Of a stretch of DNA of 64,000 bases, positions 10,201 to 43,438 are shown piece after piece. Each line of letters begins with the position of its first letter. The first letter of the stretch is position 1. Source of the DNA: Amphiura filiformis (taxonomy: Eukaryota; Echinodermata; Ophiuroidea; Amphilepidida; Amphiuridae); contig NW_027305510.1 of NCBI RefSeq assembly GCF_039555335.1, positions 620,001 through 684,000 on the forward strand. The letters are read 5' to 3'. The notes under the pieces are model-generated. The model was not told the origin of the DNA. It did no database searches and was given only the letters and a program-made list of their open reading frames with translations. A program made the translations under genes and the position numbers.

Positions 10201-13200
10201 ATGCCATTTTTGAAGTCGCCATTGGATTAACACATAATCATGAAATATTCACAAACAATTCTAAATGTGTAATGTAGTGCTAAAGCACCAAACTGTAAGA
10301 ATATTATTTTTCAATTCAACTGCTAACCGTCTATTTTGAACGGGATGTCATGCTTCTAAGTTCTACATGTAGTTTCATCAGCCTTGTATGTCACATGTCC
10401 TATACCACCTGACTTACTGGGGTATATGTCTTCAAACAAAGTGGTAATTGAATTGGTAACATCAAAGAATAATTCAGACTGCCATCCTTGTGTTAAATTT
10501 ATAATTGGTTGCCTGAACCATGAGAGTACACCATTCTTCAGAGGGGATGTTATTTAGAGAATCATACCTATACAATACATGTATATAATGACTGTCAGTT
10601 TTGAAAAGTGTAGGGCATTTAAACCAATACTAATCTTGTTTGTACTCAATTTAATACATTTTTCAAGCTGATTCCAAATATGGTCATGAAAATGTACAAT
10701 TCCGACATTTTTAAAAGAAATTTTAAAGAAAATTTGGAACTTGTCTGCAGTCGACACCCATGTGGTGAGGATTGAGATACTTACATCTTTAACATTCTGT
10801 AATGACTCTGGTGTTATTGTGAATGGAACTGCTTTAGGCTGTGCTTTCTCCTTCTGATCTTTATATTCCAAAATAAACTCTACTGTTTTACCAAGGTCCT
10901 TAGCTAGCAATGGCCTCTTCATTTCTACTTTGATGGTATACTGTAATAGAAAGATAAGGGAGCGGTCATTGTTTATGCCAGGAGGGGAATGCAAAATAAA
11001 CTCTACTGTTTTACTAATGTCAAACCAGAAAGAATCTCTTCATTTCTATTTTGATGGTATACTGTAATAGAAAGATAAGGGAGCGGTCAATGTTTATGCC
11101 AGGAGGGGGACGCAAAATAAACTCTACTGTTTTTCCAAGGTCCTTAGCTAGCAATGGCTCTTTCATTTCTACTTTGCTGGTATACTGTAATATAAAGATA
11201 AGGGAGTGGTCAATGTTTATGCCATAATCTGGTATTGCTCTGAAACAATATTATATCATACCTGGACATTAACAAACACTCCGTGATATGTTTCATACAG
11301 TGATTTGTTAACTTTGGGTTTCATACCTCATCCAATATAATCTGGTATTGCTCTCAAACCATCCAATATTATATCATACCTGGACATTAACAAACACTCC
11401 ATGATATGTTTCATAAAGTGATTTGTTAACTTTGGGTTTTAATGGCAATTCAAATGGAATCTCTGTCTTCCCTGCTGGAATCTTGCCTGGTTTGGAGACG
11501 GGTACAATATAGTTGAGAAGCTGTATTGGCTGTAAAAACAATGTGAAAAATAATTAGGTTCACTTAATATGTTCCCAGATAAAAAGATAATTGTTTGGCT
11601 TTTGAGTTTTGACAGAGGGGTTGTTTATCAGGGCTCAAAGAATACAGGGGCCATGAGGTAATGGGGCGATTCTCTCAGGTAGCGGCTGCAAAATGAGCAA
11701 TACTCAATGGAAACGGGCAATTTGTCTCAACAAAATTGATTTCAAAACAGTCATGTAAGGGATGCTTAGAAAATGTACATATTTTTTGTATTAAATCACC
11801 AGCCCATCTCAGTTTCACTCAGGGATCATTCTATGTCATAATCCAATTGTACACATAACAGCTCATCAAGTTTTCATGTGATTTTAAAATTGAGAATGCT
11901 AGTCACAAAATTATGAAAATGGAACTAGTCTCTCTGACCAAGTTTCATAGTCAAATAATGTGGTAGAGCAATTGAAACTGCATGAACAATAGTCTGAATA
12001 TCCAGTCCCAGATCAAAATATTCTTAAACTGACATCTGGGTCTGAACTGTTTCCCTTCGAAATCTTGATGGCAAACGGGACAAAAGACGCACATGAAAAC
12101 ACTTCACAGCTTTTTAATCCCCTATTCATATGATGTGTGAATCACTCTATTGTGGAACATCCTTCTGATACTTTAGTGTTTGGATTTAACCGGAACCATT
12201 TAGACAGGTCTTTTGTCTACCTCTCTGTTTGTAAACAGACAAGTATGACAAAATTGTCATCCTCGCTCAATAGAGGTTGTGCGTGAAATTATTGATTGGC
12301 TCCAAACAAAGGATTTGAACCGGTGTCCTTCACTGTAATCATGGCGTAGTGCATTTTGTTATGTATGTTAGAGGAACTGTCGTGGTAGATTGCAATCATG
12401 CTTTTGTTGAATGCATTTGAGTAGTGCACAACCTCTATAGGAATGTGGGCTGTACATCCACTACATAAACAAGACCTTACATTGAAAGCTTACTACATTG
12501 TACATCTGCCATGTTACTTACTTTGAGTGAGTTATAGAAAGCTTCAAAGAGACCAACACTCTTAGAGCTGAGTTGTAAATTAACAGAGCCATCTACTGTC
12601 AGCGTAATGCCTTGATGTTGTACATCTGATTTGCTTGCAACAACCACTACACCTGCTAGCGTGTCCTGAATATTAAACAAAAAGACACATTTTAGTAAAA
12701 CTTCATTTTGTACATTATAAAGACCTACCACCTTGCAGTGTTTAAAAAGTTTTACAGAAATCCTAAACACTTGGATTTACAGTGTAAGTAATTAAACCGA
12801 TCCTAACAAACTTGACATTCATGTCAACACGTTATTGCTTTGGTTTGTATACCTCATTTAATAAGTCAATACCCCCCAAATGAATCGTCACAGTTTCCAA
12901 CATTTCAAAGATAGTCCCTTGACGTTGCTTAAGGGATATAGAATGAGTGTTTTGAGCGTTTCGACAGTATTTTTTGTCGGACATGAGAGTACATCAGACA
13001 TATCGAATTGCATTCTGAATACGAAGAATGTCTTTCTGATATCAAATAATTTTCATTTTTTGAAATTCACGATCGATATAATACAAATTTTATGACACAT
13101 TATTAAAATTTGATATTTTTCACATTTTTGATATATAACAGTCCTCGAAGTAAATTTTATAAATCTAATGATATGTTCTTTAAAAAGTGTATGTAGCTGG

Positions 13201-15475
13201 GAGGAAAAGCCAACGATCAATTGAAAATTGATTCTTTCGCATTGAAGACATACATTTTTTTTCCAAAAAAACCAAAACATTTTAGGTGTTTTGGTGAAAA
13301 AATTTATATCTTCAATGGTCGTGCATCTTGAATTCGCAATCAAAAAAAGGTGGCGACGTTACGTTTTTCCAAAGTCAACTCCAATTAAATTATGATATCT
13401 CTGCCAAGCAATAAGTTACTATCATGCTTGTGGTCTCATTTTATTGCTAAATAAAATGCACTTTCAACCCTCTAAAAAGAAATTCTTTAGCCTTTGTAAT
13501 ACTGACACTGTGCTTCATAGAATTCAGAATGGGCAGGGTGGCGGAGGTGGGGGATGTGGTACACACAAACTCTATGGGATTGATATTTTAGTGCATAATC
13601 TGCTTCTGTAAAGGCTGTAAATTGGATTTGGACTCTATTTAGCATCTAAAATACTCATGACCTTACAGCTAAACACTTCTACTAATAGTTTTTAATCATT
13701 TATGATTGGTTTAGTCTAGAAAATACAAACTTTTCATATACAAAACTACCCGTTTTCATATTAAACACTGTAGTAGGTAATGCGGATGTTACTGTAAAAT
13801 TTTAATTACCTATCGTATCAAAGTCGAAGTATATTTTCTGAAGGGAAATTTAATGAGGAATCTAAATATGGACTTAATTTTTCTGTATGGGTTAGCAAAA
13901 TGTTTTAGTTCAAAATATGTCAAATTGTAAAAAATTCCAACATACTTTGGGACACCCTGTATTCCGAGATTACTTAAGACAGCGTTCAAGCTTTGACTTA
14001 CGTTTGGCGGACAAACCGTGAAAAAAGTATTTAGGGGTGAAAACAGTCAAAATTCTTAATTACTTAAATGTTATTAGGGGTAAAATGTGACATATTTTCA
14101 GATTTTGGCACTAAAACCCCTTATTTTTCACTGATTTTGAGAAAATTCATTTTTGGTCCAATTTTGGCGAAAATGGCCGTTTTGGGGTGACAAAAATTTT
14201 TACTTGCTAATTTCTTGTGAGTGTATGAACATGAAAACTATCAAATAGTGCCTAATTTTCTATGCTAATTGTGTAACAAGGGTACAACTGTGATATTAAA
14301 AGCATTGAATGGGATCAATATTTCTTTATTTTCGTAGCAGGGGTAGAAACTCAAAGGTTCGGGTGACAATTGATTTGGAAAAAAGTATAGGCCTAATATT
14401 TGCCTCATTTTCGATTTGAAAATGCCATATCTCCACAATGGATGTTTAAAATAAAGAAGTTGCCCTATTCTTTATAATGCTTTAGATACCCGGAACGTTA
14501 CGTTTAAAGCAATTGAATTTATACAATAATATTGAAAACGTGTCCAAACGATAGGAAATGGGCCGTCATGGTCATTTCACAAATTTTCCACTCTTTCAAA
14601 CTCAAATTTTACACAATAATACTAGTGTCAAAATGGTCCACCAAATGGCTTCAATTAGGTCTTCATTTTGCAAAAGTTTCTCACTTCTGAGGGGGGCACG
14701 CGCACATCCCCTTCAGACACTAGTCCGAATAATCAGTCCCAGAACAAAATATTAATTTCTGACATAATCGTGTTCTGGGTCTGAACTGTTTCCATATGAA
14801 ATCTTGATGGCAAATTGGACAAAAGAAGCACATGGTTCTACTTGACAGCTTTTTAATCCCTATTCATGTTACGTGAATCATGCTATTGTGGACCATCCTT
14901 CTGATACTTGAGTGTTTGGACAAGCGGAACGGTCTTTTGTCTACCTCTCTGTTTGTAAACACGAATAGGAAAGATAGCGTAATAGTACGGCACTACTCAG
15001 ACACCCCCTGCGTCGCGCAAGCGCGAAGGGATGACATCTTCATGGCCATATGGTTCGTCGCCCTCTAGAAATCTCATGTATTTTGTGCCCCCCGTATTTT
15101 TTCTCTCTGCTCTGGATCGATCCGCTTGTTCTTAAAAACCTGGCCTGGGTTTTCTGGCATGTATGACTGAATATCATTGACAGTAGATGAAGATTGAGCT
15201 TTGTTTCGCAGAATGCAGCCTGTATTGATATAATCATAGGATAATGCATGCATCATGATCACCGATCAAACTTGATTTATGTTGATAAGCTTAAAAATTG
15301 GTGCAAAATTATGCAACCATTCCTGATTCAGTTCAGTTTTGCACATCACAATTCACATTTCACAAAACTATCATGGAATCGTTGTCATGGTTCCCATCAA
15401 TCACTAAATACTTACCCCTTCATTGTATATTTTGTTGACTTTTTTCAATCTGATATCAAGCACTGGTTGAGACAT
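4133..15475 (-). CDS. VPS26C: VPS26C (DSCR3) gene: retriever subunit, whole coding span, seven exons
   Basis: VPS26C is the arrestin-fold subunit of retriever, the endosomal cargo-recycling complex with VPS35L and VPS29 that works with the CCC complex. Joining 15475-15416, 12665-12522, 11529-11380, 10940-10785, 9616-9439, 5893-5768 and 4215-4133 gives 298 codons plus TGA with no frame break; the human protein is close to this length (297). Every junction has GT donor and AG acceptor on the minus strand. Diagnostic segments are VQHQGITLTVDGSVNLQL, YETYHGVFVNVQ, QLVRVETCGCAEGYARD, VCRGLTIPIYMVFPRLFTC and TENFPIKL, all in the expected order. Identification rests on remembered family sequence, not a search. 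The gene is odd in having partial copies of three exons (near 5.5, 11.0 and 11.3 kb). The upstream flank is only about 580 bp before the 48-bp array begins. Confidence 0.93.
4230..4620. repeat. Degenerate palindrome-like repeat in VPS26C intron 6
   Basis: Contains aaaatctacactccccctgtg and related blocks (cttcccctgtggaagatatt, tccactatgggagtggactt) resembling the family A MITE interior but more diverged. A short GA run is at 4505-4520. The rest of 4620-5050 shows nothing I recognise. Confidence 0.4.
5053..5240. mobile_element. Foldback MITE in VPS26C intron 6
   Basis: Ends aatttggttcaccc and aggtgaaccaaatt are inverted, with further pairing of ggtagtgacgtcaatg and cgtacgtcactatcg. The interior is GC-rich and contains CRE-like tgacgtca. 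Confidence 0.65.
5257..5441. mobile_element. Family A palindromic MITE, copy 1
   Basis: Starts gggctattccagttgaaatc and ends with the inverted gattttaactggaatagtcc. The interior has the family blocks ggaagacatcaccttaatct and gtgtgagagattaagttcat. It lies in VPS26C intron 6. Confidence 0.85.
5472..5590 (-). pseudogene. Partial tandem copies of VPS26C exon 6
   Basis: 5472-5564 repeats the 3' part of exon 6 with its donor (minus frame VCRGLTIPIYMVFSRLFTC, then NFKVGK into intron). A further short copy of the exon end and donor lies at 5566-5590. The copy has no 5' exon part or acceptor of its own. The first copy differs from the true exon at P to S in the MVFPRLF motif. Only 5768-5893 has both splice sites and the full exon, so I take it as the functional one. 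Confidence 0.85.
5621..5717. mobile_element. Perfect 45-bp hairpin
   Basis: Left arm 5621-5665 (aacaattagtgggtttttag...) and right arm 5673-5717 are exact reverse complements by eye, with a 7-nt loop (cactgtt). It is inserted among the partial exon 6 copies in VPS26C intron 6. This is probably a very young MITE or snap-back element. Confidence 0.9.
5768..5893 (-). CDS. VPS26C: VPS26C exon 6
   Basis: Acceptor ttttcag before 5893 and donor gtaagtg at 5761-5767. Reads TEIQNIQIGEGDVCRGL then TIPIYMVFPRLFTC and TSNFKV, the most conserved block of the C-terminal arrestin domain. It completes the codon left by exon 5 (GAT G + CT). Confidence 0.95.
8631..8803. mobile_element. Foldback MITE in VPS26C intron 5
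   Basis: Left end tgtcttgtctcaagttgaga and right end tctcaacttgaggcaagaca are inverted repeats. Inner blocks gtgccgtcagtg and cactgcggcatc pair imperfectly. Confidence 0.75.
8866..8938 (+). repeat. Short dispersed repeat (also at 41128-41205)
   Basis: The block gatttatagtatgctatgca with caggcacaac recurs as gatttatagtgcgttacgca with caggcagaac near 41.13 kb, where it sits inside a family A MITE. It may be a SINE fragment; no tRNA box is clear. Confidence 0.45.
9439..9616 (-). CDS. VPS26C: VPS26C exon 5
   Basis: Acceptor cttttacag before 9616 and donor gtaagtga at 9431-9438. Reads KGGLPKFCVKGRLDSAVCC, PLTGHVVIEQCDAPIKSVE and then QLVRVETCGCAEGYARD. The last segment is nearly invariant in VPS26C and separates it from VPS26A/B. 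Confidence 0.95.
9646..10082. mobile_element. Foldback/MITE family B, copy 1
   Basis: The core holds inverted arms gacaaaataatgcacttgcg and cgcgtgcattattttgtcta around a GC-rich turn (cacccttcggggctcg). Outer parts (gagaaccaatcagagcaagc, tatttggttctattttcc) recur in opposite orientation at 53380-53745, and the outer part also at 56391-56515. Confidence 0.7.
10085..10215 (+). mobile_element. Short tRNA-like SINE fragment
   Basis: A-box-like taggctaatggttagg and B-box-like aaggttcaattcctgg occur at tRNA-like spacing, followed by a short unique tail. The stems do not pair well enough for a gene. It lies in VPS26C intron 4. Confidence 0.5.
10785..10940 (-). CDS. VPS26C: VPS26C exon 4
   Basis: Acceptor ctattacag before 10940 and donor gtaagtatc at 10776-10784, 52 codons in phase 0. 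Reads YTIKVEMKRPLLAKDLGKT, VEFILEYKDQKEKAQPKAVP and FTITPESLQNVKD. The family has YTIRCDMKRSLLAKDL and DFTITPETLQNVKE at the same place. Confidence 0.95.
10870..11228 (-). repeat. Three tandem ~120-bp units carrying the 5' part of VPS26C exon 4 and its acceptor
   Basis: Units begin near 10870, 10993 and 11113. Each contains aaataaactctactgttttn, the start of the exon, tggtatactgtaatagaaag (the acceptor on the minus strand) and gtggtcaatgtttatgcc or its variant. The first unit is the real exon. The two extra units (10993-11228) carry acceptor-plus-exon-start without a donor, so they act as potential decoy 3' splice sites. Confidence 0.9.
11228..11336 (-). pseudogene. Partial tandem copy of VPS26C exon 3 with its donor
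   Basis: Repeats ataatctggtattgctctna, the donor region atatcatacctggacattaa and the exon end up to tttgttaactttgggttt. The exon 5' half and the acceptor are missing. The functional exon is 11380-11529. Confidence 0.88.
11380..11529 (-). CDS. VPS26C: VPS26C exon 3
   Basis: Acceptor tttttacag before 11529 and donor gtatgatat at 11371-11379, 50 codons in phase 0. Reads PIQLLNYIVPVSKPGKIPAG, KTEIPFELPLKPKVNKSL and YETYHGVFVNVQ, a good match to the end of the N-terminal arrestin lobe. Confidence 0.95.
11987..12240 (+). repeat. Dispersed repeat C, copy 1
   Basis: Shares long blocks with 14720-14962: gggtctgaactgtttccc, gaaatcttgatggcaaa, cacagctttttaatcccc and cttttgtctacctctctgtt. Both copies are in VPS26C introns (2 and 1) in the same orientation. 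No terminal repeats are evident. Confidence 0.7.
12522..12665 (-). CDS. VPS26C: VPS26C exon 2
   Basis: Acceptor taatattcag before 12665 and donor gtaagtaac at 12513-12521, 48 codons in phase 0. Reads DTLAGVVVVASKSD, VQHQGITLTVDGSVNLQL and SSKSVGLFEAFYNSLK. It corresponds to the first beta strands of the arrestin fold. Confidence 0.95.
12925..13335. mobile_element. Single arm related to the foldback element at 2.0-2.7 kb
   Basis: Shares agtacatcagacatatcgaa-type sequence, tgatatcaaataatttt, aaaatttgatatttttcac, aacagtcctcgaagtaaa and tgtatgtagctgggaggaaa with the earlier copy. Located in VPS26C intron 1. Confidence 0.6.
13336..14719. other. VPS26C intron 1, no feature recognised
   Basis: AT-rich and without convincing exons. 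Short open frames here have no family resemblance. Confidence 0.5.
14720..14962 (+). repeat. Dispersed repeat C, copy 2
   Basis: Second copy of the repeat at 11987-12240 (gggtctgaactgtttcca, gaaatcttgatggcaaat, ggtcttttgtctacctctct). It is diverged, with several small indels. Confidence 0.7.
15416..15475 (-). CDS. VPS26C: VPS26C exon 1 (start codon)
   Basis: ATG at 15473-15475 begins MSQPVLDIRLKKVNKIYNEG and runs into donor gtaagtatt (15407-15415) in phase 0, joining exon 2 (DTLAG). The human start is MGTALDIKIKRANKVYHAGE, so length and pattern agree. No upstream in-frame extension is needed. The 5' leader and promoter should lie in 15476-16055; I see no TATA box that I can defend. Confidence 0.9.
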
Positions 15476-16055
15476 TGTGTTGATGTCTTGTGATCACTGC
15501 ACTTGGATGTTTGTTGTTTGTTGACCCCGGAAGTGCAGCTGCCTGATGAAAACATACAAACGACTGCAATCAAAGACTACGTTAACAAAAGCTTCTTTTA
15601 AAAGGGAAAATGATGAGTACTAGTTGTGAACAGATGGGAGCCGCAGTTTATTCTTTTTGACGGCGGTGTTCATTCATTAAAGCCATAATGTACGATCTTA
15701 TAATATGAAATTGGTTAATTTTTTTCAAACCTGTTTTTTTTGCATATTTGTAATGTCTACACATGTCCCAACTTGCACTTAAATGGAATCGGCCAAATTT
15801 GTTGCCTTTGTAGGTCAACAGAGCAAAGTTCAATATATTATCATAATTTAAAAAGTATGATAATATGTCCTCCCATAGAACTGCATGTTAAGGCCAAAAT
15901 ATCCAGTGGGGTTCTTTCACTTTACCTTGTTATTTCAACTTGAAATGGACAGCAACCCTTCCCAACAGTTATTACTAATATCATAGTATTTCAACACGTT
16001 TTGAATAAAGAATAACAAAATTCAAATTTGACGGAAATCGTACATTAAGGCTTGA
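15476..16055. other. VPS26C upstream flank, presumed promoter
   Basis: This 580-bp stretch separates the VPS26C start codon from the 48-bp array. It includes a locally GC-richer piece (gaccccggaagtgcagctgc at about 15523) that contains the ETS-like core ccggaagt, common in housekeeping promoters. The rest is AT-rich. Confidence 0.4.
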
Positions 16056-17204
16056 TTGTCAAACCCGTACACCAAATGACTTTAATTGCATGGGCCTTCC
16101 TTTATTTTGTGTCAAACTGTACACCAAATGACTTCAATTGGGCATTCCTTTATTTTGTGTCAAACTGTACACCAAATGACTTCAATTGAGCCTTCCTTTA
16201 TTTTGTGTCAAACTGTACACCAAATGACTTCAATTGGGCCTTTCTTCATTTTGTGTCAAACCGTAGGCCTACACCAAATGACTTCAATTGGGCCTTCCTT
16301 CATTTTGTGTCAAACCATACACCAAATGACTTCAATTGGGCCTTCCTTCATTTTGTGTCAAACCGTACACCAAATGACTTCAATTGGGCATTCCTTTATT
16401 TTGTGTTAAACCGTACACCAAATGACTTCATTTGGGACTTCCTTTATTTTGTGTAAAACCGTACACCAAATGACTTCAATTGGGCCTTCCTTCATTTTGT
16501 GTCAAATAGTACACCAAATGACTTCAATTGGGCCTTCCTTTATTTTGTGTCAAACTGTACAGCAAATGACTTCAATTGGGCTTTCCTTTATTTTGTGTCA
16601 AACCGTGCACCAAATGATTTCAATTGGGCCATCCTTTATTTTGTGTTAAACAGTACACCAAATGACTTCAGTTGGGCCTTCCTTTATTTTGTGTCAACTG
16701 TACACTAAATGATTTCAATTGGGCCTTCCTTCATTTTGTGTCAAATAGTACACCAAATGACTTCAATTAGGCCTTCCTTTATTTTGTGTCAACCCGTACA
16801 CCAAGTGATTTCAATTGGGCCTTCCTTCATTTTGTGTCAAACCGTACACATGATTTCAATTGGGCCTTCCTTGATTTTGTGTCAAACAGTACACCAAATG
16901 ACTTCTATCATGTCTATTGGGCCTTCCTTTATTTTGTGTCAAACCGTACACCAAATGACTTCATTTGGGCCTTCCTTCATTTTGTGTCAAACCGTACACC
17001 AAATGACTTCAATTGGGCCTTCCTTCATTTTGTGTCAAATAGTACACCAAATGACTTCAATTGGGCCTTCCTTTATTTTGTGTCAACCCGTACACCAAGT
17101 GATTTCAATAGGGCCTTCCTTTATTTTGTGTCAAACCGTACACCAAATGATTTCAATTGGGCCATCCTTTATTTTGTGTTAAACAGTACACCAAATGACT
17201 TCAG

Positions 17205-18463
17205 TTGGGCCTTCCTTTATTTTGTGTCAACTGTACACTAAATGACTTCAATTGGGCCTTCCTTCATTTTGTGTCAAACCATACACCAAATGACTTCAGT
17301 TGGGCCTTCCTTCATTTTGTATCAAACCATACACCAAATGACTTCAATTGGGCCTTCCTTCATTTTGTGTCAAACCATACACCAAATGACTTCAATTGGG
17401 CCTTCCTTCATTTTGTGTCAAACCATACACCAAATGACTTCAGTTGGGCCTTCCTTCATTTTGTATCAAACCATACACCAAATGACTTCAATTGGACCTT
17501 CCTTCATTTTGTGTCAAACCATACACCAATGACTTCAATTGGGCCTTCCTTCATTTTGTGTCAACCATACACCAAATGATTTCAATTGGGCCTTCCTTCA
17601 TTTTGTGTCAAACCATACACCAAATGACTTCAATTGGGCCTTCCTTCATTTTGTATCAAGTGATTTGAATTGGGCCTTCCTTTCTGTCAAACCGTACACC
17701 AAATGATTTTAATTGGGCCTTTCTTCATTTTGTGTCAAACCGTACACCAAATGATTTTAATTGGGCCTTCCTTCATTTTGTGTCACATAGTACACCAAAT
17801 GACTTCAATTGGGCCTTCCTTTATTTTGTGTCAACCCGTACACCAAGTGATTTCAACAGGGCCTTCCTTTATTTTGTGTCAAACCGTACACCAAATGATT
17901 TCAATTGGGCCTTCCTTCATTTTGTGTCAAATAGTACACCAAATGACTTCAATTGGGCCTTCCTTTATTTTGTGTCAACCCGTACACCAAGTGATTTCAA
18001 TAGGGCCTTCCTTTATTTTGTGTTAACCCGTACACCAATTGATTTCAATAGGGCCTTCCTTTATTTTGTGTCAAACCGTACACCAAATGACTTCAATTGG
18101 CCCTTCCTTTATTTTGTGTCAAACCATACACCAAATGACTTCAATTGGGCCTTCCTTCATTTTGTGTCAAACCGTACACCAAATGACTTCAATTGGGCCT
18201 TCCTTTATTTTGTGTCAAACAGTACACCAAATGACTTCAATTGGGCCTTCCTTCATTTTGTGTCAAACCGTACACCAAATGACTTCAATTGGGCCTTCCT
18301 TCATTTTGTGTCAACCATACACCAAATGATTTCAATTGGGCCTTCCTTCATTTTGTGTCAAACAGTACACCAAATGACTTCAATTGGGTCTTCATTCATT
18401 TTGTGTCAAATAGTACACCAAATGACTTCAATTGGGCCTTCCTTCATTAGTGTCAAACAGTAG
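17205..18463. repeat. Higher-order repeat segment, first copy (pairs with 19939-21191)
   Basis: Matching variant units recur at a constant offset of 2734 bp: units at 17205, 17242 and 17670 recur at 19939, 19976 and 20404, including shared rare changes (gtatcaagtgatttgaattg, gtcacatagtacacc). Near its right end the second copy has a local deletion (cataccatac region near 20868). Confidence 0.85.
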
Positions 18464-21400
18464 GCCCTACACCAAGTGACTTCAATTGGGTCTTCATTCA
18501 TTTTGTGTCAAATAGTACACCAAATGACTTCAATTGGGCCTTCCTTCATTAGTGTCAAACCGTACACCAAGTGATTTCAATTGGGCCTTCCTTCATTTTG
18601 TATCAAGTGATTTCAATTGGGCCTTCCTTTCTGTCAAACCGTACACCAAATGATTTTAATTGGGCCTTTCTTCATTTTGTGTCAAACCGTACACCAAATG
18701 ATTTTAATTGGGCCTTCCTTCATTTTGTGTCAAATAGTACACCAAATGACTTCAATTGGGCCTTCCTTTATTTTGTGTCAAACTGTACAGCAAATGACTT
18801 CAATTGGGCTTTCCTTTATTTTGTGTCAAACCGTGCACCAAATGATTTCAATTGGGCCATCCTTTATTTTGTGTTAAACAGTACACCAAATGACTTCAGT
18901 TGGGCCTTCCTTTATTTTGTGTCAACTGTACACTAAATGACTTCAATTGGGCCTTCCTTCATTTTGTGTCAAACTATACACCAAATGACTTCAGTTGGGC
19001 CTTCCTTCATTTTGTATCAAACCATACACCAAATGACTTCAATTATTGGACCTTCCTTCATTTTGTGTCAAACCATACACCAATGACTTCAATTGGGCCT
19101 TCCTTCATTTTGTGTCAACCATACACCAAATGATTTCAATTGGGCCTTCCTTCATTTTGTGTCAAACCATACACCAAATGACTTCAATTGGGCCTTCCTT
19201 CATTTTGTATCAAGTGATTTGAATTGGGCCTTCCTTTCTGTCAAACCGTACACCAAATGATTTTAATTGGGCCTTCCTTCATTTTGTGTCAAATAGTACA
19301 CCAAATGACTTCAATTGGGCCTTCCTTCATTTTGTGTCAAACCGTACACCAAATGACTTCAATTGGGCCTTCCTTTATTTTGTGTCAACCCGTACACCAA
19401 GTGATTTCAATAGGGCCTTCCTTTATTTTGTGTCAAACCGTACACCAAATGATTTCAATTGGGCCTTCCTTCATTTTGTGTCAAATAGTACACCAAATGA
19501 CTTCAATTAGGCCTTCCTTTATTTTGTGTCAACCCGTACACCAAGTGATTTCAATTGGGCCTTCCTTCATTTTGTGTCAAACCGTACACCAAATGATTTC
19601 AATTGGGCCTTCCTTGATTTTGTGTCAAACAGTACACCAAATGACTTCTATTGGGCCTTCCTTTATTTTGTGTCAAACCGTACACCAAATGACTTCATTT
19701 GGGCCTTCCTTCATTTTGTGTCAAACCGTACACCAAATGACTTCAATTGGGCCTTCCTTCATTTTGTGTCAAATAGTACACCAAATGACTTCAATTGGGC
19801 CTTCCTTTATTTTGTGTCAACCCGTACACCAAGTGATTTCAATAGGGCCTTCCTTTATTTTGTGTCAAACCGTACACCAAATGATTTCAATTGGGCCATC
19901 CTTTATTTTGTGTTAAACAGTACACCAAATGACTTCAGTTGGGCCTTCCTTTATTTTGTGTCAACTGTACACTAAATGACTTCAATTGGGCCTTCCTTCA
20001 TTTTGTGTCAAACCATACACCAAATGACTTCAGTTGGGCCTTCCTTCATTTTGTATCAAACCATACACCAAATGACTTCAATTGGGCCTTCCTTCATTTT
20101 GTGTCAAACCATACACCAAATGACTTCAATTGGGCCTTCCTTCATTTTGTGTCAAACCATACACCAAATGACTTCAGTTGGGCCTTCCTTCATTTTGTAT
20201 CAAACCATACACCAAATGACTTCAATTGGACCTTCCTTCATTTTGTGTCAAACCATACACCAATGACTTCAATTGGGCCTTCCTTCATTTTGTGTCAACC
20301 ATACACCAAATGATTTCAATTGGGCCTTCCTTCATTTTGTGTCAAACCATACACCAAATGACTTCAATTGGGCCTTCCTTCATTTTGTATCAAGTGATTT
20401 GAATTGGGCCTTCCTTTCTGTCAAACCGTACACCAAATGATTTTAATTGGGCCTTTCTTCATTTTGTGTCAAACCGTACACCAAATGATTTTAATTGGGC
20501 CTTCCTTCATTTTGTGTCACATAGTACACCAAATGACTTCAATTGGGCCTTCCTTTATTTTGTGTCAACCCGTACACCAAGTGATTTCAACAGGGCCTTC
20601 CTTTATTTTGTGTCAAACCGTACACCAAATGATTTCAATTGGGCCTTCCTTCATTTTGTGTCAAATAGTACACCAAATGACTTCAATTGGGCCTTCCTTT
20701 ATTTTGTGTCAAAATGTACACCAAATGATTTCAATAGGGCCTTCCTTTATTTTGTGTTAACCCGTACACCAATTGATTTCAATAGGGCCTTCCTTTATTT
20801 TGTGTCAAACCGTACACCAAATGACTTCAATTGGCCCTTCCTTTATTTTGTGTCAAACCATACAAACTTTAATTGGGTCTTCCTTCATTTTGTGTCAAAC
20901 CGTACACCAAATGACTTCAATTGGGCCTTCCTTTATTTTGTGTCAAACAGTACACCAAATGACTTCAATTGGGCCTTCCTTCATTTTGTGTCAAACCGTA
21001 CACCAAATGACTTCAATTGGGCCTTCCTTCATTTTGTGTCAACCATACACCAAATGATTTCAATTGGGCCTTCCTTCATTTTGTGTCAAACAGTACACCA
21101 AATGACTTCAATTGGGTCTTCATTCATTTTGTGTCAAATAGTACACCAAATGACTTCAATTGGGCCTTCCTTCATTAGTGTCAAACAGTAGGCCCTACAC
21201 CAAGTGACTTCAATTGGGTCTTCATTCATTTTGTGTCAAATAGTACACCAAATGACTTCAATTGGGCCTTCCTTCATTAGTGTCAAACCGTACACCAAGT
21301 GATTTCAATTGGGCCTTCCTTCATTTTGTATCAAGTGATTTCAATTGGGCCTTCCTTTCTGTCAAACCGTACACCAAATGATTTTAATTGGGCCTTTCTT

Positions 21401-21910
21401 CATTTTGTGTCAAACCGTACACCAAATGATTTTAATTGGGCCTTCCTTCATTTTGTGTCAAATAGTACACCAAATGACTTCAATTGGGCCTTCCTTTATT
21501 TTGTGTCAACCCGTACACCAAGTGATTTCAATTGGGCCTTCCTTCATTTTGTGTCAAACCGTACACCAAATGATTTCAATTGGGCCTTCCTTCATTTTGT
21601 GTCAAACCGTACACCAAATGACTTCAATTGGGCCTTCCTTTATTTTGTGTCAAACAGTACACCAAATGACTTCAATTGGGCCTTCCTTCATTTTGTGTCA
21701 AACCGTACACCAAATGACTTCAATTGGGCCTTCCTTCATTTTGTGTCAACCATACACCAAATGATTTCAATTGGGCCTTCCTTCATTTTGTGTCAAACAG
21801 TACACCAAATGACTTCAATTGGGTCTTCATTCATTTTGTGTCAAATAGTACACCAAATGACTTCAATTGGGCCTTCCTTCATTAGTGTCAAACAGTAGGC
21901 CCTACACCAA

Positions 21911-23881
21911 GTGACTTCAATTGGGTCTTCATTCATTTTGTGTCAAATAGTACACCAAATGATTTTAATTGGGCCTTCCTTCATTTTGTGTCAAATAGTA
22001 CACCAAATGACTTCAATAGGGCCTTCCTTTATTTTGTGTCAACCCGTACACCAAGTGATTTCAATTGGGCCTTCCTTCATTTTGTGTCAAACCGTACACC
22101 AAATGATTTCAATTGGGCCTTCCTTGATTTTGTGTCAAACAGTACACCAAATGACTTCTATTGGGCCTTCCTTTATTTTGTGTCAAACCGTACACCAAAT
22201 GATTTCAATTGGGCCTTCCTTCATTTTGTATCAAACAGTACACCAAATGACTTCATTTGGGCCTTCCTTCATTTTGTGTCAAATAGTACACCAAATGACT
22301 TCAATTGGGCCTTCCTTTATTTTGTGTCAAACCGTACACCAAATGACTTCAATTGGGTCTTCATTCATTTTGTGTCAAACAGTACACCAAATGACTTCAA
22401 TTGGGCCTTCCTTCATTAGTGTCAAACAGTAGGCCCTACACCAAGTGACTTCAATTGGGTCTTCATTCATTTTGTGTCAAATAGTACACCAAATGACTTC
22501 AATTGGGCCTTCCTTCATTAGTGTCAAACCGTACACCAAGTGATTTCAATTGGGCCTTCCTTTATTTTGTGTCAAACCGTACACCAAATGACTTCAATTG
22601 GGTCTTCATTCATTTTGTGTCAAACAGTACACCAAATGACTTCAATTGGGCCTTCCTTCATTAGTGTCAAACTGTAGGCCCTACACCAAGTGACTTCAAT
22701 TGGGTCTTCATTCATTTTGTGTCAAATAGTACACCAAATGACTTCAATTGGGCCTTCCTTCATTAGTGTCAAACCGTACACCAAGTGATTTCAATTGGGC
22801 CTTCCTTTATTTTGTGTCAAACCGTACACCAAATGACTTCAATTGGGTCTTCATTCATTTTGTGTCAAACAGTACACCAAGTGATTTCAATTGGGCCTTC
22901 CTTTCTGTCAAACCGTACACCAAATGATTTTAATTGGGCCTTTCTTCATTTTGTGTCAAACCGTACACCAAATGATTTTAATTGGGCCTTCCTTCATTTT
23001 GTGTCAAACCGTACACCAAATGATTTCAATTGGGCCTTCCTTCATTTTGTGTCAAACCGTACACCAAATGACTTCAATTGGGCCTTCCTTTATTTTGTGT
23101 CAAACAGTACACCAAATGACTTCAATTGGGCCTTCCTTCATTTTGTGTCAAACCGTACACCAAATGACTTCAATTGGGCCTTCCTTCATTTTGTGTCAAC
23201 CATACACCAAATGATTTCAATTGGGCCTTCCTTCATTTTGTGTCAAACAGTACACCAAATGACTTCAATTGGTCTTCATTCATTTTGTGTCAAATAGTAC
23301 ACCAAATGACTTCAATTGGGCCTTCCTTCATTAGTGTCAAACAGTAGGCCCTACACCAAGTGACTTCAATTGGGTCTTCATTCATTTTGTGTCAAATAGT
23401 ACACCAAATGATTTTAATTGGGCCTTCCTTCATTTTGTGTCAAATAGTACACCAAATGACTTCAATTGGGCCTTCCTTTATTTTGTGTCAACCCGTACAC
23501 CAAGTGATTTCAATTGGGCCTTCCTTCATTTTGTGTCAAACCGTACACCAAATGATTTCAATTGGGCCTTCCTTGATTTTGTGTCAAACAGTACACCAAA
23601 TGACTTCTATTGGGCCTTCCTTTATTTTGTGTCAAACCGTACACCAAATGATTTCAATTGGGCCTTCCTTCATTTTGTATCAAACAGTACACCAAATGAC
23701 TTCATTTGGGCCTTCCTTCATTTTGTGTCAAATAGTACACCAAATGACTTCAATTGGGCCTTCCTTTATTTTGTGTCAAACCGTACACCAAATGACTTCA
23801 ATTGGGTCTTCATTCATTTTGTGTCAAACAGTACACCAAATGACTTCAATTGGGCCTTCCTTCATTAGTGTCATACAGTAG
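21911..23881. repeat. Higher-order repeat of about 1449 bp
   Basis: The stretch 21911-22432 recurs at 23360-23881 (offset 1449) with the same order of unit variants. It is bounded by the agtaggccctacaccaagtg variant, which itself recurs at about 18.46, 21.19, 21.89, 22.43, 22.68, 23.34, 23.88, 24.13, 24.37, 25.33 and 26.30 kb. Confidence 0.85.
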
Positions 23882-24537
23882 GCCCTACACCAAGTGACTT
23901 CAATTGGGTCTTCATTCATTTTGTGTCAAATAGTACACCAAATGACTTCAATTGGGCCTTCCTTCATTAGTGTCAAACCGTACACCAAGTGATTTCAATT
24001 GGGCCTTCCTTTATTTTGTGTCAAACCGTACACCAAATGACTTCAATTGGGTCTTCATTCATTTTGTGTCAAACAGTACACCAAATGACTTCAATTGGGC
24101 CTTCCTTCATTAGTGTCAAACTGTAGGCCCTACACCAAGTGACTTCAATTGGGTCTTCATTCATTTTGTGTCAAATAGTACACCAAATGACTTCAATTGG
24201 GCCTTCCTTCATTAGTGTCAAACCGTACACCAAGTGATTTCAATTGGGCCTTCCTTTATTTTGTGTCAAACCGTACACCAAATGACTTCAATTGGGTCTT
24301 CATTCATTTTGTGTCAAACAGTACACCAAATGACTTCAATTGGGCCTTCCTTCATTAGTGTCAAACTGTAGGCCCTACACCAAGTGACTTCAATTGGGTC
24401 TTCATTCATTTTGTGTCAAACCGTACACCAAATGATTTTAATTGGGCCTTTCTTCATTTTGTGTCAAACCGTACACCAAATGATTTTAATTGGGCCTTCC
24501 TTCATTTTGTGTCAAATAGTACACCAAATGACTTCAA

Positions 24538-26290
24538 TTGGGCCTTCCTTTATTTTGTGTCAACCGTACACCAAATGATTTCAATTGGGCCTTCCTTCAT
24601 TTTGTGTCAAACCGTACACCAAATGATTTCAATTGGGCCTTCCTTCATTTTGTATCAAACAGTACACCAAATGACTTCATTTGGGCCTTCCTTTATTTTG
24701 TGTCAAACCGTACACCAAATGACTTCAATTGGGCCTTCCTTCATTTTGTGTCAAATAGTACACCAAATGACTTCAATTGGGCCTTCCTTTATTTTGTGTC
24801 AAACTGTACACCAAATTACTTCAATTGGGCTTTCCTTTATTTTGTGTCAAACCGTACACCAAATGATTTCAATTGGGCCATCCTTTATTTTGTGTTAAAC
24901 AGTACACCAAATGACCTCAGTTGGGCCTTCCTTTATTTTGTGTCAAACTGTACACCAAATGACTTCAATTGGGCCTTCCTTCATTTTGTGTCAAACCATA
25001 CACCAAATGACTTCAATTGGGCCTTCCTTCATTTTGTGTCAAACCGTACACCAAATGACTTCAATTGGGCCTTCCTTTATTTTGTGTCAAACAGTACACC
25101 AAATGACTTCAATTGGGCCTTCCTTCATTTTGTGTCAAACCGTACACCAAATGACTTCAATTGGGCTTTCCTTCATTTTGTGTCAACCATACACCAAATT
25201 ATTTCAATTGGGCCTTCCTTCATTTTGTGTCAAACAGTACACCAAATGACTTCAATTGGGTCTTCATTCATTTTGTGTCAAATAGTACACCAAATGACTT
25301 CAATTGGGCCTTCCTTCATTAGTGTCAAACAGTAGGCCCTACACCAAGTGACTTCAATTGGGTCTTCATTCATTTTGTGTCAAATAGTACACCAAATGAC
25401 TTCAATTGGGCCTTCCTTCATTAGTGTCAAACCGTACACCAAGTGATTTCAATTGGACCTTCCTTCATTTTGTGTCAAACCGTACACCAAATGATTTCAA
25501 TTGGGCCTTCCTTCATTTTGTATCAAACAGTACACCAAATGACTTCATTTGGGCCTTCCTTTATTTTGTGTCAAACCGTACACCAAATGACTTCAATTGG
25601 GCCTTCCTTCATTTTGTGTCAAATAGTACACCAAATGACTTCAATTGGGCCTTCCTTTATTTTGTGTCAAACTGTACACCAAATTACTTCAATTGGGCTT
25701 TCCTTTATTTTGTGTCAAACCGTACACCAAATGATTTCAATTGGGCCATCCTTTATTTTGTGTTAAACAGTACACCAAATGACCTCAGTTGGGCCTTCCT
25801 TTATTTTGTGTCAAACTGTACACCAAATGACTTCAATTGGGCCTTCCTTCATTTTGTGTCAAACCATACACCAAATGACTTCAATTGGGCCTTCCTTCAT
25901 TTTGTGTCAAACCGTACACCAAATGACTTCAATTGGGCCTTCCTTTATTTTGTGTCAAACAGTACACCAAATGACTTCAATTGGGCCTTCCTTCATTTTG
26001 TGTCAAACCGTACACCAAATGACTTCAATTGGGCTTTCCTTCATTTTGTGTCAACCATACACCAAATTATTTCAATTGGGCCTTCCTTCATTTTGTGTCA
26101 AACAGTACACCAAATGACTTCAATTGGGCCTTCCTTCATTTTGTGTCAAACCGTACACCAAATGACTTCAATTGGGCTTTCCTTCATTTTGTGTCAACCA
26201 CACACCAAATTATTTCAATTGGGCCTTCCTTCATTTTGTGTCAAACAGTACACCAAATGACTTCAATTGGGCCTTCCTTCATTAGTGTCA
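24538..26290. repeat. Higher-order repeat of 868 bp
   Basis: 24911-25249 and 25779-26117 are equivalent at offset 868, including the rare units aaattacttcaattgggctt and aatgacctcagttgggcc. Confidence 0.85.
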
Positions 26291-27299
26291 AACAGTAGGC
26301 CCTACACCAAGTGACTTCAATTGGGTCTTCATTCATTTTGTGTCAAATAGTACACCAAATGACTTCAATTGGGCCTTCCTTCATTAGTGTCAAACCGTAC
26401 ACCAAGTGATTTCAATTGGGCCTTCCTTTCTGTCAAACCGTACACCAAATGATTTTAATTGGGCCTTTCTTCATTTTGTGTCAAACCGTACACTACACCA
26501 AATGATTTTAATTGGGCCTTCCTTCATTTTGTGTCAAAAAGTACACCAAATGACTTCAATTGGGCCTTCCTTTATTTTGTGTCAATCCATACACCAAGTG
26601 ATTTCAATTGGGCCTTCCTTCATTTTGTGTCAAACTGTACACCAAATGATTTCAATTGGGCCATCCTTTATTTTGTATCAAACAGTACACCAAATGACTT
26701 CATTTGGGCCTTCCTTTATTTTGTGTCAAACCGTACACCAAATGACTTCAATTGGGCCTTCCTTCATTTTGTGTCAAACTATACACCAAATGACTTCAGT
26801 TGGGCCTTCCTTCATTTTGTGTCAAACCATACACCAAATGACTTCAATTGGGCCTTCCTTCATTTTGTATCAAGTGATTTCAATTGGGCCTTCCTTTCTG
26901 TTAAACCGTACACCACATGATTTTAATTGGGCCTTTCTTCATTTTGTGTCAAACCGTACACCAAATGACTTCAATTGGGCCTTCCTTTATTTTGTGTCAA
27001 ACCGTACACCAAATGACTTCAATTGAGCCTTCCTTTATTTTATGTCAAACCATACACCAAATGACTTCAGTTGGGCCTTCCTACATTTTGTGTCAAACCG
27101 TACACCAAATGATTTTAATTGGGCCTTCCTTCATTTTGTGTCAAACCGTACACCAAATGAATCAATTGGGCCTTCCTTTATTTTGTGTCAAACCGTACAC
27201 CAAATGACTTCAATTGAGCCTTCCTTTATTTTATGTCAAACCATACACCAAATGACTTCAGTTGGGCCTTCCTTCATTTTGTCTCAAACCGTACACCAA

Positions 27300-30200
27300 A
27301 TGATTTCAATTGGGCCTTCCTTTATTTTGTGTCAAACCGTACACCAAATGACTTCAATTGGGCTTTCCTTTATTTTGTGTCAAACCGTACAACAAATGAT
27401 TTCAATTGGGCCTTCCTTTATTTTGTGTCAAACCGTACACCAAATGACTTCAATTGGGCTTTCCTTTATTTTGTGTCAAACCGTACAACAAATGATTTCA
27501 ATTGGGCCTTCCTTTATTTTGTGTCAAACTGTACACCAAATGACTTCAATTGGGCCTTCCTTCATTTTGTGTCAAACCGTACACCAAATGACTTCAATTG
27601 GGCTTTCCTTCATTTGGTCTCAAACAGTACACCAAACGACTTCAATTGGGCCTACAAACAGTACACCAAATGACTTCAATTGGGCCTTCCTTTATTTTGT
27701 GTCAAACAGTACACCAAATGACTTCAATTTGGCCTTCCTTCATTTTGTATCAAATGACTTCAACTGGGCCTTCTTTTATTTTGTGTCAAACTGTACACCA
27801 AATGACTTCAATTGGGCTTTCCTTTATTTTGTGTCAAACCGTACACCAAATGACTTCAATTGGGCCTTCCTTCATTTTGTCTCAAACCGTACACTAAATG
27901 ACTTCAATTGGGCCTTCCTTTATTTTGTGTCAAACTGTACGCCAAGTAATTTCAATTGGGCCTTCCTTCATTTTGTCTCAAACCGTACACCAAATGACTT
28001 CAATTGGGCTTTCCTTTATTTTGTGTCAAACAGTACACCAAATGACTTCAATTGGGCCTTCCTTCATTTTGTCTCAAACCGTACACCAAATGACTTCAAT
28101 TGGGCCTTCCTTCATTTTGTGTCAAACCATACACCAAATGACTTCAATTGGGCTTTCCTTTATTTTGTGTCAAACAGTACACCAAATGACTTCAATTGGG
28201 CCTTCCTTTATTTTGTCTCAAACCGTACACCAAATGACTTCAATTGGGCCTTCCTTCATTTTGTGTCAAACCATACACCAAATGACTTCAATTGGGCTTT
28301 CCTTTATTTTGTGTCAAACAGTACACCAAATGACTTCAATTGGGCCTTCCTTCATTTTGTGTCAAACAGTACACCAAATGACTTCAATTGGGCCTTCCTT
28401 CATTTTGTATCAAACAGTACACCAAATGACTTCAATTGGGCCTTCCTTCATTTTGTATCAAACAGTACACCAAATGACTTTAATTGGGCCTTCCTTCATT
28501 TTGTGTCAAACCGGACACCAAGTGACTTCAATTGGGCCTTCCTTCATTTTGTATCAAACAGTACACCAAATGACTTCAATTGGGCCTTCCTTTATTTTGT
28601 GTCAAACCGTACACCAAATGATTTTAATTGGGCCTTCCTTCATTTTGTATCAAACCGTACACCAAATGCATCAATTGGGCCTGCCTTTATTTTGTGTCAA
28701 ACTGTACACCAAATGACTTCAATTGGGCCTTCCTTCATTTTGTGTCAAACAGTACACCAAATGACTTCAATTGGGCCTACCTTCATTTTGTCTCAAACCA
28801 TACACCAAATGACTTCAATTGGGCCTTCCTTTATTTTGTGTCAAACCGTACACCAAATGACTTCAATTGGGCCTTCCTTCATTTTGTGTCAAACCGTACA
28901 CCAAATGACTTCAATTGGGCCTTCCTTCATTTTGTCTCAAACCGTACACCAAATGATTTTTTATTGGGCCTTCCTTTATTTTGTGTCAAACCGTACACCA
29001 AATGACTTCAATTGGGCCTTCCTTTATTTTGCAGGCCTTGCCGTTTGAGGCGAGTGATCGCTCTCGCTCGCCACCGCTCGCCCAAACTCCATTCCTAGTG
29101 AGCGATTTTCCACTAGCCATAGACACTAAATATCGCTCGCAGCAAATCGCCAAAATTGAACTACGTTCGTAACAATGCCTGAAAGCGAGCGGGTTTCATA
29201 TTGGTATATGAATTGTCTTTTAGACCTGAAAGTGATACGACCACTTCATACTAGAGGGGTTCAGCTCTGAGAGTGATTCAACCACTCGCCTAGCATTATG
29301 CTAGCGAGTGATTGACCACTCGCCTTTAAAATCTAGATGGCAAGGCCTGATTTTGTATCAAATAGTACACCAAGTGACTTCAATTGGGCCCTCCTTCATT
29401 TGGTTCAAACAGTACATCAAATGACTTCAGTTGGGCCTTCCATTATTTTGTGTCAAACCGTACACCAAATGACTTCAATTGGGTCTTCCTTCATTTTGTC
29501 TCAAACCGTACACCAAATGACTTCAATTGGGCCTTCCTTTGTTTTGTGTCAAACCGTACACCAAATGATTTCAATTGAGCCTTCCTTCATGTTGTGTCAA
29601 ACCGTACACCAAATGACTTCAATTGGGCCTTCCTTCATTTTGTGTCAAACCGTACACCAAATGACCTCAATTGGGCCTTCCTTTATTTTGTGTCAAACCG
29701 TACACCAAATGACTTCAATTGGGTCTTCATTCATTTTGTGTCAAACAGTACACCAAATGATTTTAATTGGGCCTTCCTTCATTTTGTGTCAAACCGTACA
29801 CCAAATGAATCAATTGGGCCTGCTTTTTATTTTGTGTCAAACTGCACACCAAATGACTTCAATTGGGCCTTCCTTCATTTTGTGTCAAACCGTACACCAA
29901 ATGAATCAATTGGGCCTGCTTTTATTTTGTGTCAAACTGCACACCAAATGACTTCAATTGGGCCTTCCTTTATTTTGTGTCAAACCGTACACCAAATGAC
30001 TTCAATTGGGTCTTCATTCATTTTGTGTCAAACAGTACACCAAATGATTTTAATTGGGCCTTCCTTCATTTTGTGTCAAACCGTACACCAAATGAATCAA
30101 TTGGGCCTGCTTTTATTTTGTGTCAAACTGCACACCAAATGATTTCAATTGGGCCTTCCTTCATTTTGTCTCAAACCATACACCAAATGACTTCAATTGG

Positions 30201-31240
30201 GCTTTCCTTTATTTTGTGTCAAACCGTACACCAAATGATTTCAATTGGGCCTTCCTTTATTTTGTGTCAAACAGTACACCAAATGACTTCAATTGGGCCT
30301 TCCTTCATTTTGTCTCAAACCGTACACCAAATGATTTCAATTGGGCCTTCCTTTATTTTGTGTCAAACCGTACACCAAATGACTTCAATTGGGCTTTCCT
30401 TTATTTTGTGTCAAACCGTACAACAAATGATTTCAATTGGGCCTTCCTTTATTTTGTGTCAAACCGTACACCAAATGACTTCAATTGGGCTTTCCTTTAT
30501 TTTGTGTCAAACCGTACAACAAATGATTTCAATTGGGCCTTCCTTTATTTTGTGTCAAACTGTACACCAAATGACTTCAATTGGGCCTTCCTTCATTTTG
30601 TGTCAAACCGTACACCAAATGACTTCAATTGGGCTTTCCTTCATTTGGTCTCAAACAGTACACCAAACGACTTCAATTGGGCCTACAAACAGTACACCAA
30701 ATGACTTCAATTGGGCCTTCCTTTATTTTGTGTCAAACAGTACACCAAATGACTTCAATTTGGCCTTCCTTCATTTTGTATCAAATGACTTCAACTGGGC
30801 CTTCTTTTTTATTTTGTGTCAAACTGTACACCAAATGACTTCAATTGGGCTTTCCTTTATTTTGTGTCAAACAGTACACCAAATGACTTCAATTGGGCCT
30901 TCCTTCATTTTGTCTCAAACCGTACACTAAATGACTTCAATTGGGCCTTCCTTTATTTTGTGTCAAACTGTACGCCAAGTAATTTGAATTGGGCCTTCCT
31001 TCATTTTGTCTCAAACCGTACACCAAATGACTTCAATTGGGCTTTCCTTTATTTTGTGTCAAACAGTACACCAAATGACTTCAATTGGGCCTTCCTTCAT
31101 TTTGTCTCAAACCGTACACCAAATGACTTCAATTGGGCCTTCCTTCATTTTGTGTCAAACCATACACCAAATGACTTCAATTGGGCTTTCCTTTATTTTG
31201 TGTCAAACAGTACACCAAATGACTTCAATTGGGCCTTCCT
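27300..31240. repeat. Higher-order repeat of 3031 bp spanning the inserted transposon
   Basis: The irregular unit string near 27598 (catttggtctcaaacagtac, cgacttcaattgggcctaca) recurs near 30629, and flanking variant order agrees. The two copies lie on either side of the element at 29032-29349, so the duplication copied array sequence but not the element. Confidence 0.8.
29032..29349. mobile_element. 318-bp TIR element inserted in the 48-bp array
   Basis: Terminal inverted repeats caggccttgcc and ggcaaggcctg (11 bp perfect), with a subterminal ggcgagtg/cactcgcc pair. It is flanked by attttg on both sides (29026-29031 and 29350-29355), an apparent 6-bp target duplication of a site that lies within the array unit. 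It has no coding capacity. Related sequence lies at the left edge of the window (160-210). Confidence 0.85.
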
Positions 31241-32565
31241 TTATTTTGTCTCAAACCGTACACCAAATGACTTCAATTGGGCCTTCCTTCATTTTGTGTC
31301 AAACCATACACCAAATGACTTCAATTGGGCTTTCCTTTATTTTGTGTCAAACCGTACACCAAATGACTTCAATTGGGCCTTCCTTTATTTTGTATCAAAC
31401 AGTACACCAAATGACTTCAATTGGGCCTTCCTTCATTTTGTGTCAAACCATACACCAAATGACTTCAATTGGGCTTTCCTTTATTTTGTGTCAAACAGTA
31501 CACCAAATGACTTCAATTGGGCCTTCCTTCATTTTGTATCAAACAATACACCAAATGACTTCAATAGGGCCTTCGTACATTTTGTGTTAAACCGTACACC
31601 AAATGACTTCAATTGAGCCTTCCTTCATTTTATGTCAAACCGTACACCAAGTGACTTCAATTGGGCCTTCCTACATTTTGTGTCAAACCGTACACCAAAT
31701 GACTTCAGTTGGGCCTTCCTTCATTTTGTATCAAACCATACACCAAATGACTTCAATTGGGCCTTCCTTCATTTTGTATCAAGTGATTTCATTTGGGCCT
31801 TCCTTCATTTTGTGTCAAACCATACACCAAATGACTTCAATTGGGCCTTCCTTCATTTTGTGTCAAACCGTACACCAAATGACTTCAATTGGGCCTTCCT
31901 TCATTTTGTGTCAAACCATACACCAAATGACTTCAATTGGGCCTTCCTTTATTTTGTGTCAAACCGTACACCAAATGACTTCAATTGGGCCTTCCTTCAT
32001 TTTGTGTCAAACCATACACCAAATGACTTCAATTGGGCCTTCCTTCATTTTGTGTCAAACCGTACACCAAATGACTTCAATTGGGCCTTCCTTCATTTTG
32101 TATCAAACAGTACACCAAATGATTTCAATTGGGCCTTCCTTCATTTTGTGTCAAACCATACACCAAATAATTTCAATTGGGCCTTCCTTTATTTTGTGTC
32201 AAACCGTACACCAAATGATTTCAATTGGGCCTTCCTTTATTTTGTGTCAAACTGTACACCAAACGACTTCAATTGAGCTTTCCTTTATTTTGTGTCAAAC
32301 CGTACACCAAATGATTTCAATTGGGCCTTCCTTTATTTTGTGTCAAACCGTACACCAAATGATTTCAATTGGGCCTTCCTTTATTTTGTGTCAAACCGTA
32401 CACCAAATGACTTTAATTGGGCCTTCCTTTATTTTGTGTCAAACTGTACACCAAATGATTTCAATTGGGCCTTCCATTATTTTGCGTCAAACCGTACACC
32501 AAATTATTTCAATTGGGTCTTCCTTCATTTTGTGTCAAAACACCAAACACCAAGTGACTTCAAGA

Positions 32566-34094: not shown

Positions 34095-34161
34095 GTGGTT
34101 GTCATAATTTAATACCATCTTCAGCTGTCAGTATTCACAACCCTGTTACATACAATATAAC

Positions 34162-42379: not shown

Positions 42380-43438
42380 CTACAGGTGCTCCCGGCACCG
42401 TGTACCTACAGACGCTCCCGTTGACAATAACCTATCATCTGCCATGGATTTCTGAGGTGTTGCCATTGCCAATAACCTATCATCGGCCATTGACTTGTGA
42501 GGTGTGGTAGTTAATTTAAGAGGTATGTTTCCAGCTGCTTCCGCCGCCCGCTTGAGAGAGTGCGTTGGCGCCGATTTACTCGAGCTATTTACAGTTATCG
42601 TTGCGATTCCGTTTGTGTTGGCACTTTGTATGCTTGTAGTAGTGTTACTATTAGCGACGCTCACGGCGTACGCCATGTTATTAACAGCTTGAACGATTGC
42701 TGAATTCAATGAAACTGTCGCCGGTGAGCTAGCTGCTATTCCGTTGTTGTCGCCACCTTTGACAGGCGTTGCTGTGTAAATCATCTGATTACCGCCGGTC
42801 GACACCACTCCTGGGCTAGCGGTCACCACACTTGGTGTAGTCACCACGGTGGCCAAATTAAGCGCCCCCGAATTGGAAGTGGGTGACTGCGTGGCTAAGT
42901 TTAATACCCCTGAATTGACTGGTGATTGCGTGGCTAAGTTTAATACCCCTGAATGTGTGTTGACTGCTGGCGACTGGAATGCAGCGGGCAAAGTGGGTGA
43001 TAAACCAGGACTCAATAGGGACCCGTGGTAAGAGCCGTAATTGAACGACGGCGGATTGATTCTCTTCTCTTTCTGCCGTCTATTACAGAACCAAACCCGT
43101 ACGACTTCTTTTTCCATTCCCATTTGCTCTGCAAGAAGTGAGATTTCTTCTGAAGTAGGTTTACTATTAGCCAAGAACGCCTTCTCCATAGCTATTCTCA
43201 CGTTGGTCTCAATACTGGTACGTTTCTTCCGCCGCCTCGATAAACCATCTGGACTCATAGCTGGTCCTAGGATGATGGGATTGGTTACCGTGATGTCCGC
43301 ATCATCCAGCCATCTTTGTAACAACGGTTTCAACTTGCACATGTTCTTAAAACTGAGATTAAGGGCTTCAAACCGGGATATCGTTGTTTGGCTAAAGTCA
43401 TTACCATAAAGCTTACCCATAGCTAGACCAACATCACC
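42380..43438 (-). CDS. POU2F1-like: POU2F last coding exon: POU-specific end, homeodomain, tail
   Basis: Acceptor ttaattacag before 43438, 352 codons, TAG at 42380-42382. Residues 1-50 finish the POU-specific domain ([32 protein letters not shown]). A 25-residue linker follows, then the homeodomain at about 77-136 ([13 protein letters not shown] ... [16 protein letters not shown]) with the Cys at homeodomain position 50 that marks POU proteins. The tail is Ser/Thr/Asn/Val-rich with internal repeats ([11 protein letters not shown] three times; a 45-bp tandem duplication giving KSMADDRLL twice). The final residues ([14 protein letters not shown]) look unlike the family. Another frame stays open past this stop to 42298, so the true C-terminus may differ by a frameshift or splice. 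The homeodomain region has no intron here, unlike vertebrate genes. Confidence 0.92.

Follow-up and report, generated by a model that had tools for sequence, protein, structure and literature searches.

Locus-specific tandem arrays longer than 10 kb have been described in the human genome by Warburton and colleagues (PMC2588610), with units ranging from 20 to 1823 bp and, in several cases, higher-order structure. Among the arrays they describe, the one at Xp22.33 has a 61-bp unit, a total length of 18.6 kb, and irregular repeats of 1.6 and 2.4-2.5 kb. In the account given by a review of satellite DNA (PMC5615363), minisatellites have units of 10-100 bp and are conventionally euchromatic, but repeat classes overlap, as do their length ranges, and the term "satellite DNA" is now widely applied to long tandem repeats.

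The 48-bp array analyzed here lies within a 64-kb stretch of DNA (the window). It resembles the Xp22.33 VNTR, as portrayed in PMC2588610, in having a unit of tens of bases, a total length above 10 kb, and irregular higher-order blocks, with a block scale of 1.6 and 2.4-2.5 kb at Xp22.33 versus offsets of 0.87-3.03 kb for the longest blocks of the 48-bp array. Unlike the Xp22.33 array of that study, it is from another species, has another sequence, and is split by a transposon-like insert. In anatomy it belongs with the human locus-specific arrays of more than 10 kb (PMC2588610). As in the minisatellites outlined in PMC5615363, the unit falls within 10-100 bp and the array lies near genes; given the overlapping ranges in that review, an array of 16.5 kb could be named either a minisatellite or satellite DNA. 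A further parallel is with the Tetris / TIR-220 arrays of Drosophila virilis (PMC4079207), where a tandem array likewise accompanies a TIR-bearing DNA element. Whereas the Tetris / TIR-220 repeats reported there lie within the transposon arms, the 48-bp unit has no match within its neighboring element (15675-16058).

We consider it very probable that the array is a large non-coding VNTR-type minisatellite, situated in the spacer that separates the 5' end of VPS26C from a POU2-type gene, and growing mainly in blocks. It need not have any function in its own right.

Structure and gene neighborhood of the array

Tandem Repeats Finder (TRF) recovered the 48-bp array at 16057-32563, also reporting the multiples of 96 and 144 bp, and wraparound alignment to the consensus divided it into 341 head-to-tail units, one of them flagged as partial. 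The initial annotation, which had proposed the TRF run as a check, described about 340 units of 48 bp in one run of 16.5 kb; number, size, and period were confirmed, but the run is not continuous, being interrupted by a 318-bp insert (Table 1). That annotation saw no gene context; the neighbors of the array have now been identified as VPS26C and a POU2/Oct-1-type gene.

Table 1. Positions in the window of the array, its duplicated blocks, and adjoining features
Feature	Position	Strand	Details and source
Other VPS26C exons (ORF pieces)	5712-5900, 9434-9643, 10557-11039, 11377-11553, 12480-12776 (span 5712..12776)	-	bounds approximate, not splice-mapped
VPS26C first coding exon	15416..15475	-	MSQPVLDIRLKKVNKIYNEG, then GTAAGT donor
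TIR-flanked MITE-like element	15675..16058	.	22-nt arms, 86%
Left array part	16057..29031	+	TRF, wraparound alignment
1066-bp block	16913..17978	+	base-for-base copy of 19647-20712, offset 2734; exact-repeat scan
1059-bp block	21822..22880	+	99.8% identical to 23271-24329, offset 1449; repeat comparison
721-bp block	24562..25282	+	99.4% identical to 25430-26150, offset 868; repeat comparison
668-codon open stretch	27042..29048	+	ORF list; traverses both open phases, ends inside insert
Neighbor of the 642-bp block	27244..27777	+	99.8% identical to 30275-30808
642-bp block	27774..28415	+	99.1% identical to 30807-31448, offset 3033; repeat comparison
MITE-like insert, 318 bp, splitting the array	29032..29349	.	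perfect 11-bp TIR CAGGCCTTGCC/GGCAAGGCCTG; inverted-repeat search
Right array part	29350..32563	+	degenerate last unit; TRF, listing of terminal units
POU2/Oct-1-type gene, POU and homeodomain exons	42380..44461	-	Pfam; Oct-1 E 2.2e-61

The units are well conserved, with 94.7% identity to the consensus over their aligned bases. Most are 48 bp long (253 of 341, the remainder measuring 31-57 bp), 251 contain no indel, and together the readable units amount to 16.2 kb (16,189 array bases). There is no decay toward the edges, as mean mismatches stay between 2.05 and 2.85 per 20 units across 17 windows of the array (2.4 in the first window from the left and 2.15 in the last), although the final unit is degenerate. 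The single CpG of the unit (columns 9-10) is variable, with 8.8% T and 15.5% A, but the non-CpG C columns 23 and 42 vary more toward T (31% and 37%), and a methylation signature of CpG decay therefore cannot be claimed. Secondary structure was likewise discarded as a reason for the unit: neither two units folded as DNA (z = -1.31) nor the opposite strand folded as RNA (z = 0.33) gave a striking value.

No Rfam family matched within the array at the gathering threshold. Exact searches with unit patterns found no match in viral contigs or prokaryote genome contigs, and plasmids and phages contained none to a 1201-base segment of the array; such collections are not meant for animal genomes and hence are little informative. 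We recognized no report of the array among the literature matches listed, which cover open-access text.

The array lies in the spacer between two predicted minus-strand animal genes, VPS26C, of which it faces the 5' end, and the POU2/Oct-1-type gene. The first VPS26C exon together with the next exon piece matches residues 4-67 of the solved VPS26C chain 8p0x_P (E 4e-24), and further pieces, when joined, align with residues 20-169 and 190-270 of this 297-residue chain (E 2.8e-91). A distance of 582 bp separates the VPS26C ATG from the array edge, which lies upstream of it. On the other side, the POU2/Oct-1-type ORF stops near 42380, where a splice to a further exon is possible. Between the array and this gene, ten minus-strand ORF pieces gave no family above cut-off (DarP, at 18.3 bits, fell below it); as the scan of this spacer covered 8 of the 30 ORFs of at least 65 aa, on the minus strand only, a small gene may be present there. 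VPS26C itself contains repeated sequence: part of an exon occurs in tandem at 10869-11250 (TRF; 121-bp unit, 2.9 copies), and a second, tandem copy of the VCRGLTIPIYMVF exon, 88% identical over 128 bp, is found within 5443-5856.

Open reading frames and coding constraint

In the consensus unit, frames +0 (CQTVHQMTSIGPSFIL) and +2 (SNRTPNDFNWAFLHFV) are open and the remaining four of the six are closed. The two stop-free plus-strand frames of the initial annotation are thus real, as is its 668-codon ORF, which extends 17 bases into the 318-bp insert and meets its stop there. Its description of small indels that move the sequence between the two open frames without closing it was only partly accurate. 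Frame switching does occur, but all three phases are in use (132, 127, and 82 of the 341 units), the third among them, and stops are found in every plus-strand frame, numbering 171, 175, and 142 over the whole interval including the insert.

A consensus with two open frames is not unusual and is expected from shuffles of the unit. At least two of six frames were open in 74.4% of 20,000 base shuffles and in 98.5% of 20,000 dinucleotide shuffles, and at least two of the three plus-strand frames in 42.6% and 84.2%, respectively (20,000 each). TRF lists six other arrays in the window with a period divisible by 3, and those that are not two-copy arrays, three in number, were compared; their periods are 21, 42, and 51, and of the six consensus frames 4, 4, and 3, respectively, are open. 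The double openness would be the outcome of a period divisible by 3 combined with few stop triplets in the unit on the plus strand.

The longest open run exceeds the nulls that treat events as independent, which leans against purely neutral openness. In neutral simulations, 668 codons were reached in 1 of 300 runs with the true unit and in 10 of 300 with shuffled units. The real unit order, with the insert left out, gives an open run of 870 codons; permuting the real units gave a 99th percentile of 676 codons, with 870 attained in 4 of 1000 cases. For an array that evolves through duplication of blocks, we take a block null to be the fairer one; with blocks of 5, 10, and 20 units left intact (500 permutations each), 668 codons were reached in 6.4, 11.6, and 18% of cases. 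Much of the excess is accounted for by the clustering that such duplication creates, though not surely all of it.

Indels and substitutions bear on whether a protein is encoded. Only 5 of the 52 distinct indel events, or 22 of 188 occurrences, have a length that is a multiple of 3 (20 of 186 occurrences when counted by a slightly different procedure), and the other 47 events and 166 occurrences shift the frame. In frame +0, the 70 distinct substitutions comprise 48 nonsynonymous, 18 synonymous, and 4 stop changes, against 49.9, 17.2, and 2.9 expected; in frame +2, the same number comprises 52, 15, and 3, against 52.1, 15.7, and 2.1. The expectation is neutral and corrected for transitions and transversions, and the counts were compared with it using neither an outgroup nor a formal test. 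On this comparison, stop-making changes are not avoided, there is no synonymous excess, and nonsynonymous and synonymous changes are close to neutral in both open frames.

The open stretches of up to 668 codons, longer than independent-event nulls produce, would argue for a gene or exon that encodes a repetitive protein through one or both of the open frames. Some whole-protein Pfam scores also exceed the curated cut-off, FLILHELTA in both of two ORFs examined and DUF7241 and K1-lyase_N in one of the two, but in neither ORF did any one stretch pass the limit, and the three families are mutually unrelated; we read the scores as noise summed over the repeats. None of three long array ORFs had a match in NCBIfam, which is a prokaryote library. 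Moreover, the longest ORF terminates within a transposon-like insert. We regard such a gene as exceedingly improbable: coding in one or both frames is rejected by the indel spectrum, the near-neutral substitution counts, and the phase use, and the indel spectrum contradicts a gene in a single frame. The non-coding reading of the initial annotation has therefore withstood the observations that it named as able to overturn it, with indels not confined to multiples of 3, no single frame kept, and substitution counts near neutral (without a formal test). Its view of openness as a by-product of period and composition, free of coding constraint, is supported by the shuffles, the indel spectrum, and the near-neutral substitutions. 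A tandem period divisible by three can thus keep two frames open over long stretches with no need to invoke coding, a point of caution for gene finding.

Probable growth of the array in blocks

Duplicates within the array (ungapped, at least 400 bp, at least 97% identical) cover 10,067 of its 16,189 bases, or about 62%. Thirteen such block pairs are listed, with offsets from 144 to 6872 bp; the longest are given in Table 1. The same pattern is visible in single units. Identical pairs make up 0.9% of adjacent units and 1.3% of random pairs, but 19.2% of units that lie 58 apart. As identity is no commoner between adjacent units than between random ones, recent growth has not been by single-unit duplication, and the small excess over random at distances of 2, 3, and 5 units (3.0, 3.0, and 3.6%) indicates that some shorter copying has taken place too. 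Recent growth has mainly been through the copying of tens of units together, along with some events that involved a few units.

Unequal exchange, or recombination repair, may have expanded and homogenized the array by copying many units in a single event. We infer unequal exchange as the usual explanation, and other forms of recombination repair would leave the same picture. The near-identity of the blocks suggests recent change in the array. Its 16.2 kb of readable units can be regarded as a record of array growth, mainly in many-unit blocks.

Alternative explanations and neighboring repeats

The array could instead serve VPS26C, offering many copies of a protein-binding motif as an enhancer, silencer, or insulator ~0.6 kb upstream of the start codon. 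Its edge is 582 bp from the ATG, and the consensus unit contains ATTGG, a CCAAT-box core on the strand of VPS26C; however, ATTGG (columns 28-32) is at the consensus base in ~93-99% of units, a level that many other columns match, and we find a regulatory array of this kind quite improbable. There is a slim chance that it is a promoter-proximal, rapidly changing VNTR that tunes VPS26C through block duplications, or that it is transcribed and yields two-frame repeat peptides. If VPS26C were affected by the array, the array would be a natural length-variant regulator. What interest it retains lies in its place just upstream of VPS26C and in its clear block history.

A different origin, in which the array locally represents a satellite family spread through the genome or a transposon with internal repeats, is suggested by the TIR-flanked element (22-nt arms) that the array meets at its first unit, and transposons are able to seed arrays, as in the case of Tetris described in Drosophila virilis (PMC4079207). 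We think this unlikely, as the unit is found nowhere else in the 64-kb window, where the two matches outside the array are only 12 and 18 bp (E 0.42 and 0.027), and a blastn comparison of the two array flanks (13001-16080 against 32521-36000) gave a single match of 13 bp (E 0.13). Collapsed or falsely duplicated blocks in the assembly are very unlikely as well. The 1066-bp pair is identical to the base, as misassembly might yield, but each of the other 12 listed pairs shows 1-10 differences, at many offsets, and the insert, with its target duplication, is found whole at one place only. The preferred reading thus remains a non-coding minisatellite growing mainly in blocks.

The 318-bp insert is flanked on both sides by a 6-bp ATTTTG and, given this target-site duplication and its TIR, would by structure be a non-autonomous DNA transposon; a partial second copy, 86% identical over 65 bp and derived from near its right end, lies at 143-207. 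The right end of the element at 15675-16058 coincides with the first array unit, making it a possible seed or boundary of the array.

Other repeats also occur in the window. An abundant, dispersed palindromic MITE-like repeat of ~190 bp, matching itself on both strands, occurs at 5256-5441 and in 14 other places (e.g. 33590-33777, 40472-40661, 49981-50168, and 58546-58726), with copies 72-88% identical to that at 5256-5441. The one Rfam match in the whole window, to tRNA at 54694-54767 on the minus strand (35.7 bits), was not called by ARAGORN (bacterial code) and is possibly a tRNA-derived SINE. The 21-bp and 42-bp arrays that served as internal controls, each with four of six consensus frames open, are located at 45211-45927 and 60902-61358 in the presumed POU2 gene region. 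The same presumed region holds a 38-bp tandem array (48549-49363) of 21.5 copies, whose 99% identity indicates a very recent expansion.
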